A stretch of 64,000 nt of DNA from contig JADZEI010000018.1 of the NCBI GenBank assembly GCA_020850615.1, positions 124,001-188,000 on the forward strand, in the 5' to 3' direction. The stretch is from Dehalococcoidia bacterium (GTDB taxonomy: Bacteria; Chloroflexota; Dehalococcoidia; Tepidiformales; Tepidiformaceae). Shown here in pieces: positions 23,120 through 48,402 of this stretch. Every line of letters begins with the position of its first letter. Position 1 is the stretch's first letter. The notes beneath the pieces were generated by a model. That model made no database searches. It was not told where the DNA came from and saw only the letters and a list, made by a program, of their open reading frames with translations. The translations under genes and the position numbers were made by a program.

Positions 23120-23188
23120 GGCGGACAGGCCCATCACGGAGGTGCGCGCGCAACAGCATCCGGTTTCAGCGAGGGCAGTGACTTCGTA

Positions 23189-23318
23189 GCGCCAGGTCCG
23201 CTCCGGCGGATGACGAGGCGGGGGCAGTATCGAAAGACTCGGCGGATGGCCCCCCGGCAGGCACAGCCGTAAGGCGTCACACAAACCAGCTTGGGCAACC
23301 GGCTGACAACGGTGCGCC
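23189..23318 (+). ncRNA. glmS glucosamine-6-phosphate riboswitch-ribozyme
   Basis: The leader holds the glmS ribozyme core in order. AGCGCC has the expected cleavage point between A23188 and G23189. P1 hairpin GTCCGC/GCGGAT is followed by GACGAGG. P2 is GGGGGC with GCCCCC enclosing TATCGAAAG and CTCGGCGGATG. P2.1 is CCGGC with GCCGTAAGG. P3 is GGCG-CAC with GTGCGCC, enclosing ACAAACCAGC and GCTGACAAC of P4. This matches the Bacillus-type consensus nearly base for base at conserved sites. GlcN6P would act as cofactor for self-cleavage, destabilising the mRNA and lowering glmS expression. It ends 126 nt before the glmS ATG. Confidence 0.93.
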
Positions 23319-23444
23319 AGGTGCCAGGGCTCGCGCAGCCCTCTTCCCCACTCCCTCACACGCATCTTCCGAACCTGCCGCCGGGGCCACGGACCCCGCC
23401 GGCGCAGGCTGCCGCGGTGTATCCGCGGCGTGGGAGTGAACTGT

Positions 23445-45349: not shown

Positions 45350-45634
45350 TCAGGCCACCGGCGAACCGCACCGCCCGCAGAACTTCGCCGTCAGCGGCAC
45401 CACGGTGCTGCACCGCGGGCAGCGCATCTCCTCGCCGGCCGACGGCAGGAGCTTGCCACACTCCTGGCAGAACCGCTGGGAGCCCTCGTTGCGGGCGCCA
45501 CAGTCCATGCAGAACACGGGCGGCGCCGGTGGCGCTTTCGCTTCCACCGGAGCTTCTGCCCGGTCCTTGTTCTTCTTCTTCTTGCCACGGCGCTCGAACA
45601 GGTCTTCGAACACCTCGAACAGTTCATCTACCAT
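45350..45634 (-). CDS. Double zinc-ribbon small protein of the PspA operon
   Basis: A 94-residue protein. The N terminus MVDELFEVFEDLFERRG and a Lys-rich stretch are followed by two CxxC...CxxC ribbons (FCMDCGARNE and FCQECGKLL; RCPRCSTVV and FCGRCGSPV), so two zinc sites. Last gene of the PspA operon, 4 nt after pspAA. Its first residues resemble those of the 69-residue protein that opens the operon (M-x-DELF). Likely a regulator or adaptor of the PspA complex. Confidence 0.75.
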   Translation of the reverse strand: MVDELFEVFEDLFERRGKKKKNKDRAEAPVEAKAPPAPPVFCMDCGARNEGSQRFCQECGKLLPSAGEEMRCPRCSTVVPLTAKFCGRCGSPVA

Positions 45635-45638
45635 CGTC

Positions 45639-45923
45639 TTACCCTGGTACGAGCCCGGATTCCCCGAGCATCTCACGCAGTTCCGCAATCGAAACGTCAG
45701 CCGGCGGGATGATGCAGTCCGACGGCACGAGGCGGTCCGCCTCCACCGGCTGCCCGGTGCTCCGCACGAGCTCGACCATCTGCGCCAGGTGGTGCCGGAA
45801 GCCGTCGTCGTCCCCATCGTCCTGCAGGTCGGCGTCGAGCGCGCCGTCGAGCTCGTTCAGGCGGTCCACCACGTCGTCGCCGACTTCGAACTGGCCTTCG
45901 CCCATGATCCGGACAATCATCAC
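45639..45923 (-). CDS. pspAA: PspA-associated protein PspAA
   Basis: A 94-residue protein with the PspAA signature: MIVRIMGEGQFEV, the DRLNELDGALDADL helix, and the end DCIIPPADVSIAELREML with GLVPG. PspAA is known next to PspA in actinobacteria, Chloroflexota and archaea. It overlaps the 67-residue ORF upstream by ATGA and directly precedes the zinc-ribbon gene. Confidence 0.85.
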   Translation of the reverse strand: MMIVRIMGEGQFEVGDDVVDRLNELDGALDADLQDDGDDDGFRHHLAQMVELVRSTGQPVEADRLVPSDCIIPPADVSIAELREMLGESGLVPG

Positions 45924-46123
45924 TCCACCTCCCGGCGAATCGGCACGGCCGCCCGCCGCCCGTGTTCACCCAGCACCCTGCTCAGCAGGTAGCGAATGAC
46001 CTCGGCGCGGTCGGCGCTGCCCTTGCGCTGCGCGACCGCCAGGTCCCGCTGGAGCGCGGTCGCGAGCCGGGCGGGGCGCCCTTCGATCGCGTACTCCCCG
46101 AACTCCGTCGATACGTACGTCAC
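45920..46123 (-). CDS. 67-residue hypothetical protein between pspA and pspAA
   Basis: It starts inside the pspA stop (ATGA at 46120-46123) and ends inside the pspAA start (ATGA), so it is almost surely translated. Mixed alpha/beta composition (YAIEGRPARLATALQRDLAV, EVIRYLLSRVLGEHGRR). It recalls ribbon-helix-helix or small adaptor proteins, but I recognise no family. Confidence 0.6.
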   Translation of the reverse strand: MTYVSTEFGEYAIEGRPARLATALQRDLAVAQRKGSADRAEVIRYLLSRVLGEHGRRAAVPIRREVE

Positions 46124-46848
46124 CGCGGCGCCTCCAGCTGGGGCGGCGCGGGCGCGGGATCGAGCTGGCGGCGCAGCTCTTCGAGCTCCAGCTCGACCGA
46201 ATACTGCGAGCCGAGCGCATCGAGCTCCCGGTCGAGCGCGGTCCCGCCGCCGAGGTTGTCGTCGAGCACGCCGCTGGCGATGAGCTCGCTGATCGCGTCG
46301 CCCTTGGCCCGGAGCTGGGCAGTCTTGTCCTCGGCGCGCTGGATCGAAGCGCCGACGTCACTCATCTCCTCCGAGAGGCCGGTGAGCGATTCGTTGATCC
46401 GTACGGTCGCCTTCGCGGCGCTGTACTGGGCCTTCACCACCTCCTTGCGGGTGCGGAAGGCGTCGACCTTCGCCTGGAGGCGCTGCTCGGCCTGGACAAG
46501 GCGGTCCTGCTCGCCCTGGAGCTGAGCCACCTGCGCATCGAAGTCGGCCACCTGGGTGACGGCAGACTGCTTCCGTTCGAGCGCAAGCCGGGCGAGGTCC
46601 TCGCGGCCGGCGACCATCGCCTGGCGGGCCTGGCCGTCGAACTTCGCGAGCTGTGCGCGCTGCTCGTCCGCCTGGAGCTGGAGGCGGCGCTTGGCGGCGG
46701 TCACTTCCACCACGCCGCGCTTCACGTCACGGAGCATGTCGAGCTGCTTCTCGTAGCTGAGGTCGAGCATCTCGCGCGGGTCTTCGGCCGCGTCGAGCGC
46801 CTTGTTGGCTTTCGCCTCGAGGATGGTCTTGAGTCGCTTCAACACCAT
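46120..46848 (-). CDS. pspA: PspA/IM30 family membrane-stress protein
   Basis: A 242-residue coiled-coil protein of the PspA/Vipp1 ESCRT-III superfamily. It begins MVLKRLKTILEAKANKALDA with an amphipathic helix, then LDLSYEKQLDMLRDVKRGV and long Gln/Glu/Arg heptads. It coats damaged membranes. ATG 46848 has a weak SD (AAAGGG). It is translationally coupled to the 67-residue ORF and pspAA, and lies 74 nt after terC in the same direction. Confidence 0.92.
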   Translation of the reverse strand: MVLKRLKTILEAKANKALDAAEDPREMLDLSYEKQLDMLRDVKRGVVEVTAAKRRLQLQADEQRAQLAKFDGQARQAMVAGREDLARLALERKQSAVTQVADFDAQVAQLQGEQDRLVQAEQRLQAKVDAFRTRKEVVKAQYSAAKATVRINESLTGLSEEMSDVGASIQRAEDKTAQLRAKGDAISELIASGVLDDNLGGGTALDRELDALGSQYSVELELEELRRQLDPAPAPPQLEAPR

Positions 46849-46922
46849 GGCTGTCCCTTTCTTGCTGGTCGTTCGGAGGAGGAGCTGGCCGGGCGGCGGG
46901 GGACCGCCCGGCCACAGCGGCG

Positions 46923-47894
46923 CTACTGCCCCCCGGCGGGTTCGGGTTCCGCCGGGCGCGCCTCCACATCGTGGGCCGGGGGTGGGTTCCGCCGGGCCTT
47001 GAGGATGGACGCGAGAATCGCGACCGTAAGGATGACCGTGATGACGCCGAGGCTGAGCAGCGACGGCACCTTGTACACGTCCACCAGGAGCATCTTCGAA
47101 CCGACGAAGACCAGGATGGCCGCCAGCGCCGGCTTCAGGTAGGCCAGCCCGGCCAGGTAGCCCGAGAGCACGAAGTAGAGCGCCCGCAGGCCGAGGATGG
47201 CGAAGACGTTCGAGGTGAAGACGATGAACGGGTCGTCGGTGACTGCGTAGATCGCGGGGATGCTGTCCACCGCGAACACGAGGTCCGTGCTTTCGATGAG
47301 CAGGAGCACCAGGAAGAGCGGCGTCGCGTAGAGGATGCCCTCCTTGCGCGCGAAGAAGCGCTGGCCTTCGTACCCGGAGGTGACGGGCCAGAACCGCCGC
47401 GCCACGCGGACCAGCCGGTTTTTCTCCAGCGACGGCGCCTCTTCGTGGCTGCGCAGGAACTTGAGCCCCGTGAAGATCAGGAACGCGCCGAAGATGTAGA
47501 TGACCCAGTGCAGCGTGCCGAGCAGGAACCCGGCCGCGCCGATGAGCACCGCGCGCATGATCAGCGCGCCGAGGATGCCCCAGAACAGCACCCGGTGCTG
47601 GTACTGCGGCGGCACTGAAAAGGTCGAGAAGATCAGCAGGAAGATGAAGACGTTGTCGACGCTGAGCGACTTCTCGATCAGGTAGCCGGTCGTCCATTCG
47701 ATGCCGCGGTCCGTCCCCTGGATCAGGTAGACGCCGATGTTGAAGACGATAGCCAGGCCGATCCAGACGGCGCTCCAGGCGAGCGCCTCCTTACGGTGCA
47801 CTTCATGGGCGTTGCGGTGGAATACCCCGAGGTCGACGGCGAGCATGGCGAGTACGAACGCCAGGAACGCCGCCCAGGGCAGCAATTCGAGCAT
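46923..47894 (-). CDS. TerC/Alx family membrane protein
   Basis: A 323-residue integral membrane protein with about nine TMs. Family acidic motifs in TMs: EKSLSVDNVFIFLLIF and IESTDLVFAVDSIPA. TerC family members (Alx, MeeF/MeeY) export manganese or supply metal to secreted enzymes. It sits in an operon behind a yybP-ykoY manganese riboswitch, the classical context for this family. SD GGAG, 10 nt before ATG 47894. Confidence 0.93.
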   Translation of the reverse strand: MLELLPWAAFLAFVLAMLAVDLGVFHRNAHEVHRKEALAWSAVWIGLAIVFNIGVYLIQGTDRGIEWTTGYLIEKSLSVDNVFIFLLIFSTFSVPPQYQHRVLFWGILGALIMRAVLIGAAGFLLGTLHWVIYIFGAFLIFTGLKFLRSHEEAPSLEKNRLVRVARRFWPVTSGYEGQRFFARKEGILYATPLFLVLLLIESTDLVFAVDSIPAIYAVTDDPFIVFTSNVFAILGLRALYFVLSGYLAGLAYLKPALAAILVFVGSKMLLVDVYKVPSLLSLGVITVILTVAILASILKARRNPPPAHDVEARPAEPEPAGGQ

Positions 47895-47937
47895 CAGGTG
47901 TTTCTCCGGTGGGCAGTAACAGGAGTTGGATGGTGGT

Positions 47938-47967
47938 GGGGCGCGAGGAAGGAGCTACGCGCGCCCC
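47938..47967 (-). other. Intra-operon 8-bp hairpin before terC
   Basis: GGGGCGCG (47938-47945) and CGCGCCCC (47960-47967) with a 14-nt loop, between the 69-residue ORF and terC. There is no U-tract, so it may be an RNA processing or stability site. Confidence 0.35.
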
Positions 47968-47979
47968 GGCAACGCGCGG

Positions 47980-48189
47980 CTAGTCGAAGGACCAGTCGTC
48001 GTCGCGGTTGCGGCGGCGGTCGCTCTCCTGGCGTCCATCGCGGCGGTCGTCACGCCGGTCATCGTCATCGTCGCCATCCCCAATGGCGCTGACGACGCGG
48101 CTCAGGAGGCCGCGGAGCCCACGCGGGCGTTCGCCCTCGCGGCCCTGGCGGCCGTCGCGGTCGCCGAGATCGAACAACTCGTCGAGCAT
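47980..48189 (-). CDS. 69-residue highly charged protein, first gene of the riboswitch-controlled operon
   Basis: ATG 48189 follows a strong SD (GAGGAGGTG) by 7 nt. It begins MLDELFDLGDRDGRQGRE, has a short amphipathic segment (GLRGLLSRVVSAIG), and ends in alternating Asp/Arg runs and DDDWSFD. Asp clusters could bind divalent metal, but that is conjecture. Its start resembles that of the zinc-ribbon protein ending the operon. It would be the first product released when the riboswitch is on. Confidence 0.65.
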   Translation of the reverse strand: MLDELFDLGDRDGRQGREGERPRGLRGLLSRVVSAIGDGDDDDDRRDDRRDGRQESDRRRNRDDDWSFD

Positions 48190-48252
48190 GAAAAAACACC
48201 TCCTCGCGGACCCGGTCCAAAAGAGACATACCGGCCGCATCCAAACGGATGT

Positions 48253-48363
48253 GCCGAAGTCTCACCGGGCGAGAAGGTGTCTCGCTCCCACTGCCGGCGC
48301 GGAAACGCGCGTATTGACGGCAACGGGCCACCCCGGGGGCGGGGCGTCGGTTACTCCCCCCGA
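48253..48363 (-). promoter_or_regulatory. yybP-ykoY manganese riboswitch
   Basis: On the minus strand the aptamer reads TCGGGG, then GGAGTAA (L1), a GC-rich P2, CCGTCAATACG, a CGCG/CGCG hairpin, CCGGC, a GCGAGA/TCTCGC hairpin, then GGTGAGA (L3) and CTTCGG closing P1 with TCGGGG. These are the conserved L1, CGUCAAU, CCGG and L3 elements in the correct order. CACCTTCTC within it (forward 48271-48279) can pair over 9 positions with the SD GAGGAGGTG (forward 48197-48205) of the first gene. Mn2+-stabilised folding would hold that segment in the aptamer and free the SD, so the switch is probably ON with Mn2+. Confidence 0.87.
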
Positions 48364-48374
48364 ACTGTTACGAA

Positions 48375-48402
48375 CGTATACGAGCCTCCGAACGCCTGTC
48401 AA
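48375..48402 (-). promoter_or_regulatory. Promoter of the riboswitch-TerC-PspA operon
   Basis: On the minus strand, TTGACA (forward 48397-48402), 16 nt, TATACG (forward 48375-48380). Transcription would start near 48368, just before P1 of the riboswitch. CGTATACG at the -10 is an 8-bp palindrome. Confidence 0.7.

Follow-up and report, generated by a model that had tools for sequence, protein, structure and literature searches.

A yybP-ykoY riboswitch upstream of terC and, in one lineage of Chloroflexota, of a pspA module

Can one manganese riboswitch bring metal export and membrane repair under common control? The question is raised by a locus in a 64,000-nucleotide stretch of DNA from a Dehalococcoidia bacterium (contig JADZEI010000018.1, positions 124,001 to 188,000; hereafter the window), in which an aptamer of the yybP-ykoY class, i.e., of the manganese (Mn2+) riboswitches, precedes terC and genes for PspA, a protein that protects the membrane, and its associates. 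The genome is a 4.17-Mb draft in 95 contigs, and its family is that of Tepidiforma flava and other Tepidiforma (Chloroflexota). The initial annotation had placed there a promoter, the aptamer and six genes; all are found in place, on the minus strand, from the promoter (48402-48375) down to 45350. It had further described the riboswitch as commanding both TerC and PspA. The observation is real and its main interpretation is half established: the leader is probably the ON switch of a Mn2+-export operon to which one lineage has added an envelope module, the transcript most likely reaching pspA.

Detection and architecture of the aptamer

By eye, the leader contains GGGGAGUAAC, GUCAAUAC and GGUGAGAC, much like that of E. 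coli alx. A covariance model (R1) was built from the leaders of six genomes of the same family having the same operon, the window being excluded. The aptamer proposed initially is borne out by this held-out model, with 68.4 bits against 15.6 bits for the next-best place in the window. In E. coli, model R1 also recovers two proven Mn2+ riboswitches, scoring mntP at 29.9 bits and alx at 25.4 bits, i.e., one model fits all three; a second covariance model, with alx outside its training set, finds alx with 39 bits (E=1.6e-6).

Covariation leads in the same direction. Among 30 aligned leaders, 93.6% of the cells are paired, both partners have changed in 23 of the 26 pairs, and covariation scores 0.613, vs. 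0.164 for shuffled and at most 0.091 for slid controls. It must be noted that this alignment was fitted to the model, so that the counts lean toward it; the gap to the slid controls is nonetheless large. The leader is kept in 19 of the 38 genomes of the order.

48253-48364, minus: yybP-ykoY (Mn2+) riboswitch aptamer (model R1, 68.4 bits, E=1.6e-14)
48351-48357, minus: 5' strand of loop L1, GGAGUAA (almost every relative, as well as E. coli alx and mntP, has GGGAGUA)
48311-48318, minus: 5' strand of loop L3, GUCAAUAC (GUCA invariant in relatives)
48255-48263, minus: 3' strand of L1 (GAGA) and of the switch helix (CUUCG, pairing with CGGGG at 48362-48358), from sequence and minimum free energy (MFE) folding

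The published architecture of the class is a four-way junction with L1 and L3, an invariant adenosine involved in Mn2+ sensing and a weak switch helix (PMC6754395). The window fold agrees with it: sequence, folds and pair counts give a four-way junction with L1 GGAGUA/GAGA, L3 UCA and the invariant adenosine, and by analogy the A at 48315 is expected to be the one sensing Mn2+. The aptamer is a canonical member of this known riboswitch class.

On the other side stands RF00080, the library model of the class, with which the initial annotation had proposed to search. It does not find the aptamer: there is no match to the window leader at the gathering score (45 bits) nor at E<=10, nothing at any useful score in the whole window genome, and no useful match in the scanned relatives. 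However, of 14 control genomes only 2 contain a match above the RF00080 cut-off, and of 294 genomes of the class none does; the missing match is therefore a weakness of the library model, the gathering threshold being a detection rule and not a property of the RNA. In view of the held-out result, the silence of RF00080 was no longer taken to mean that a riboswitch is absent. RF00080 is thus nearly blind in Chloroflexota, where an improved model built from the lineage reveals the RNA in 74 genomes out of 400 (E<=0.001). One candidate of the class search, L083, is not an aptamer, as it lies inside a topoisomerase-looking gene.

The same aptamer also occurs before MgtC-like, Na/Ca-exchanger-like and MacB-like genes (L069, L070, L073, L071, L156, L159, L160, L173). 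In L156 two aptamers are divergent, with terC on one side and the exchanger gene on the other.

The operon and its linkage to the pspA module

The order of genes after the aptamer is: a charged protein of 69 amino acids (aa), Alx-type TerC, PspA, an open reading frame (ORF) of 67 aa, PspAA and a double zinc ribbon protein.

48375-48402, minus: promoter, TTGACA (48402-48397), 16-nt spacer, TATACG (48380-48375), 10/12 match
47980-48189, minus: first gene, 69-aa Asp/Arg-rich small protein (17 members downstream of the riboswitch; nonsynonymous rate, dN, below synonymous rate, dS)
46923-47894, minus: TerC of the Alx subfamily, probable Mn2+ exporter (PF03741, 179.6 bits; TIGR03718 "R_switched_Alx", 407.4 bits, cut-off 246.4)
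46120-46848, minus: PspA/IM30 family protein (PF04012, 102.9 bits, cut-off 33.9; matches solved Vipp1/PspA chains)
45920-46123, minus: 67-aa ORF between pspA and pspAA, with a 4-nt overlap with each neighbour
45639-45923, minus: PspAA, PspA-associated protein, adjacent to pspA (PF22743, 109.3 bits, cut-off 27)
45350-45634, minus: double zinc ribbon protein (PF12773, PF13240)

TIGR03718 and PF04012 being above their cut-offs, the protein encoded upstream belongs to the TerC/Alx family and the one that follows to PspA/IM30. There is good support for a Mn2+ riboswitch preceding a terC gene of the Alx type. Only 4 nt separate pspAA from the zinc ribbon gene, whose product is found at the same place in seven relatives with 57-69% identity. 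The 67-aa ORF has no Pfam or NCBIfam family and no match in relatives.

The conservation of this neighbourhood was searched at two scales. Among the 38 genomes of the order, PspAA is present in 8 (three genera), and all 8 have PspA-PspAA-zinc ribbon directly 3' of TerC on the same strand. The complete order, riboswitch, small ORF where present, TerC, PspA, PspAA and zinc ribbon, can be read directly in seven (the window, G005, G006, G021, G022, G024 and G026), four Tepidiforma lacking the small ORF in the operon. In the remaining one, G007, the operon is split by the assembly: one contig carries the riboswitch, the small ORF and the start of terC, the other TerC-PspA-PspAA-zinc ribbon. At the larger scale, relatives of the window PspA were sought across about 85,000 species and 67 loci were returned. 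Five come from Tepidiforma's family, each with TerC just upstream; none of the other 62 (mostly Actinomycetota) has a TerC match or a credible aptamer within at most 4.5 kb on each side. A weak aptamer match in one PspA locus outside the family (L131) is a false positive, inside a long acyl-CoA-ligase-like frame and devoid of L1.

Riboswitch-TerC also exists without PspA in genomes of the family; riboswitch-terC is therefore the core, and the PspA module was attached to it in one lineage. The linkage seen initially is thus conserved together with pspA-pspAA-zinc ribbon, but only within one family. A second, unlinked pspA is present in the window genome (G000:C1:32554-33243), with similar unlinked copies in G006, G007 and G018.

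Apart from TerC, no partner of the riboswitch is better conserved than the small charged protein, on which the initial annotation did not dwell. Neither Pfam nor NCBIfam has a family matching it. In 17 of the examined leaders the aptamer is followed by a reading frame of 55-116 aa, mostly Asp/Arg-rich, often with an N-terminal MLDELFExFERD, RGxRGFxxRLF in the middle and an acidic end; divergence is greatest in L031, L034 and L076. The dN/dS values in the tested pairs are 0.21/0.78, 0.23/0.58, 0.15/0.27 and 0.22/0.92.

Family members: window 47980-48189; L030, L031, L034, L064-L070, L072, L074-L076, L078 and L079

The gene is usually the first after the riboswitch, sometimes without TerC: in G036 and G037 the next gene is of the MgtC family, and in G087 no transporter gene comes after it. 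The small protein therefore tracks the riboswitch rather than TerC. An undescribed family of small proteins under riboswitch control is thus brought to light; as a guess, its members could be Mn2+ buffers or TerC partners. By eye, the N-terminus (MLDELFE.FER) resembles that of the zinc ribbon protein of the operon (MVDELFEVFEDLFERR).

As for the promoter, shuffling the upstream segment gives a score as high in only about 0.2% of cases, and a promoter is found at the equivalent position in most relatives. A palindrome, TACGACA-N4-TGTCGTA, lies between the -35 and -10 of the riboswitch promoter in L030, L064, L065 and L066 and, in a weaker form, in L068 and L072; it is a likely repressor operator. 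L031 has a different palindrome, CCGGAAATACATTTCCGG, upstream of the aptamer. The window promoter has no TACGACA-N4-TGTCGTA palindrome.

Switching layout and competing explanations

Growing transcripts were folded without constraint. At 111-127 nt the MFE structure is the complete aptamer, switch helix included; in longer transcripts it gives way to pairings of the following elements:

48223-48263, minus: anti-aptamer hairpin, in which GAGAC of L1 pairs with GUCUC (48227-48223); in the MFE structure from 143 nt on
48265-48280, minus: anti-Shine-Dalgarno strand ACACCUUCUCGCCCGG, overlapping aptamer P4, paired with CCGGGUCCGCGAGGAGGUG (48215-48197) in the full-length MFE structure
48197-48204, minus: Shine-Dalgarno AGGAGGUG of the first gene, followed by U6 (from sequence)

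The unpaired probability of the window Shine-Dalgarno is 0.0 in free folding vs. 0.27-0.35 when the aptamer is enforced (two slightly different constraints), and enforcing the aptamer likewise makes the Shine-Dalgarno more accessible in most relatives without terminator. Four Tepidiforma leaders have instead CCCTGGC...GCCAGGG, or a sequence close to it, and then T6-7, i.e., a terminator-like hairpin whose first strand is the switch-helix strand. Thermodynamic folding thus places the switch helix in competition with either a terminator or a Shine-Dalgarno stem, and both layouts are predicted to be of the ON-switch type. Homology to the proven members suggests that Mn2+ is the ligand and that it turns expression on.

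The following mechanism can be proposed. With enough Mn2+, the four-way-junction aptamer would dock, the weak switch helix (CGGGG/CUUCG) and P4 would be held and the Shine-Dalgarno of the first gene would be free. Without Mn2+, GAGAC would pair with GUCUC and the P4 strand ACACCUUCUCGCCCGG with the Shine-Dalgarno, turning translation off; transcription would perhaps be off too, because U6 comes after the stem. The first gene would provide the small Asp/Arg-rich protein and the second an Alx-type TerC exporting Mn2+. The transcript would most likely continue through pspA, the 67-aa ORF, pspAA and the zinc ribbon gene, so that an excess of Mn2+ would raise PspA-based membrane repair.

The passage from terC to pspA is the decisive step. 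The gap is 74 nt long in the window and contains no promoter-like site (the best one scores 5/12, a value reached by 99% of shuffles).

46887-46913, minus: GC hairpin in the terC-pspA gap, GGCCGGGCGG-TCCCCCG-CCGCCCGGCC, without U-tract (from sequence; MFE of the gap -33.9 kcal/mol)

Given this absence of a promoter-like site and four downstream genes that overlap or nearly touch, read-through into pspA is favoured and appears rather likely in the window genome.

Besides the silence of RF00080, several points weigh against a riboswitch acting on the whole operon: (i) with the aptamer enforced the window Shine-Dalgarno is just partly free, and in a few of the leaders compared it is no more open, or even less so; (ii) many relatives, including other genomes of the family, have riboswitch-TerC without PspA; (iii) the hairpin between terC and pspA is strong, and similar ones exist in the g3 relatives; (iv) the gaps of four Tepidiforma contain a conserved TACGATCG and palindromes (GGTGTCA-N4-TGACACC in L026), which may constitute a separate pspA promoter. 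Points (ii) to (iv) are those expected if the riboswitch governed the small protein and TerC only, the pspA module forming a separate unit with its own promoter or lying beyond a hairpin at which transcription stops. This arrangement is nevertheless unlikely, since the window gap has no promoter-like site, its hairpin lacks a U-tract, the Tepidiforma gaps score no higher than shuffles for sigma-70 sites, and gene order and strand immediately behind terC do not vary among the 8 PspAA loci. The initial interpretation is therefore borne out in part: the riboswitch before Alx-type terC is well supported, and its "command" over pspA, across a gap with no promoter-like site but with a GC hairpin, is a probable extension.

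It is very improbable that the conserved fold senses another divalent ion or signal in this lineage (e.g., Mg2+, Ca2+ or pH). RF00080 misses the lineage, and in other members of the family and phylum this RNA stands before MgtC-like and Na/Ca-exchanger-like genes, but L1, L3 and the sensing adenosine are unchanged, the main partner is Alx-type TerC and the proven Mn2+ riboswitches fit the same model. Finally, a chance resemblance in GC-rich DNA, which could be invoked from the lack of any Rfam match even at E=10 and from the short pattern GGAGTA-N25-55-GTCA, expected by itself about once per window, is refuted by the held-out match (E=1.6e-14, second-best 15.6 bits) and by covariation far above both controls; the conservation of the leader in half of the order (19/38) also speaks against it.

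An ON switch of a Mn2+-export operon extended to an envelope module is thus the preferred explanation. Its fuller version, in which Mn2+ excess would act through one riboswitch on TerC export, on a small protein serving as TerC partner or Mn2+ buffer, and on PspA-PspAA repair, is tentative and falls somewhat short of probable. If true, Mn2+ overload would be sensed as an envelope threat in Tepidiforma's family.

Two other regulatory RNAs must be mentioned. A glmS ribozyme (window 23177-23328, plus strand, 58.8 bits) is the sole Rfam match at gathering score in the window, and in two Tepidiforma genomes a c-di-AMP riboswitch lies 3-4 kb away from the operon (L027 952-1089 and L028 635-772, both minus strand).

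Comparison with known systems

The riboswitch class is known; the composition of its regulon is new as far as the literature searched shows. No paper was found there that ties a PspA module to TerC or to a manganese riboswitch, in agreement with the claim that the extension to PspA is undescribed. A survey of phage shock protein (PSP) neighbourhoods makes no mention of TerC (PMC11237479). TerC proteins supply metal to exported enzymes (PMC10550928); a link between metal homeostasis and membrane repair, so far suggested only indirectly, is here found as their joining in one probable transcription unit.

Like the RF00080 class (E. coli alx and mntP leaders), the window RNA has L1 GGGAGUAA/GAGA, L3 GUCAnnAC, a four-way junction, a switch helix opposed to a downstream stem and an Alx-type terC downstream. 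Unlike it, the window RNA is GC-rich, compact and below RF00080 detection, and is followed by a small Asp/Arg-rich protein and, in the lineage, by the pspA module. The window TerC resembles the TerC/Alx family (TIGR03718; E. coli Alx, B. subtilis MeeF/MeeY), with 407 bits to the model of the riboswitch-linked Alx subfamily, and differs from it by the linkage of its gene to pspA-pspAA. As in the PspA-PspAA dyad, pspA is followed by pspAA, and zinc ribbons also occur near some pspA genes (PMC11237479). The window pair differs in being placed after riboswitch-terC; none of the 62 other PspA loci examined has TerC or the aptamer close by. In the sigma-W regulon of B. subtilis (pspA-ydjGHI, yceCDEFGHI), a TerC-family gene and pspA belong to one envelope-stress programme. 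There, the control is shared through a sigma factor acting on separate operons, whereas in the window both genes stand in what is probably one operon behind a Mn2+ riboswitch.

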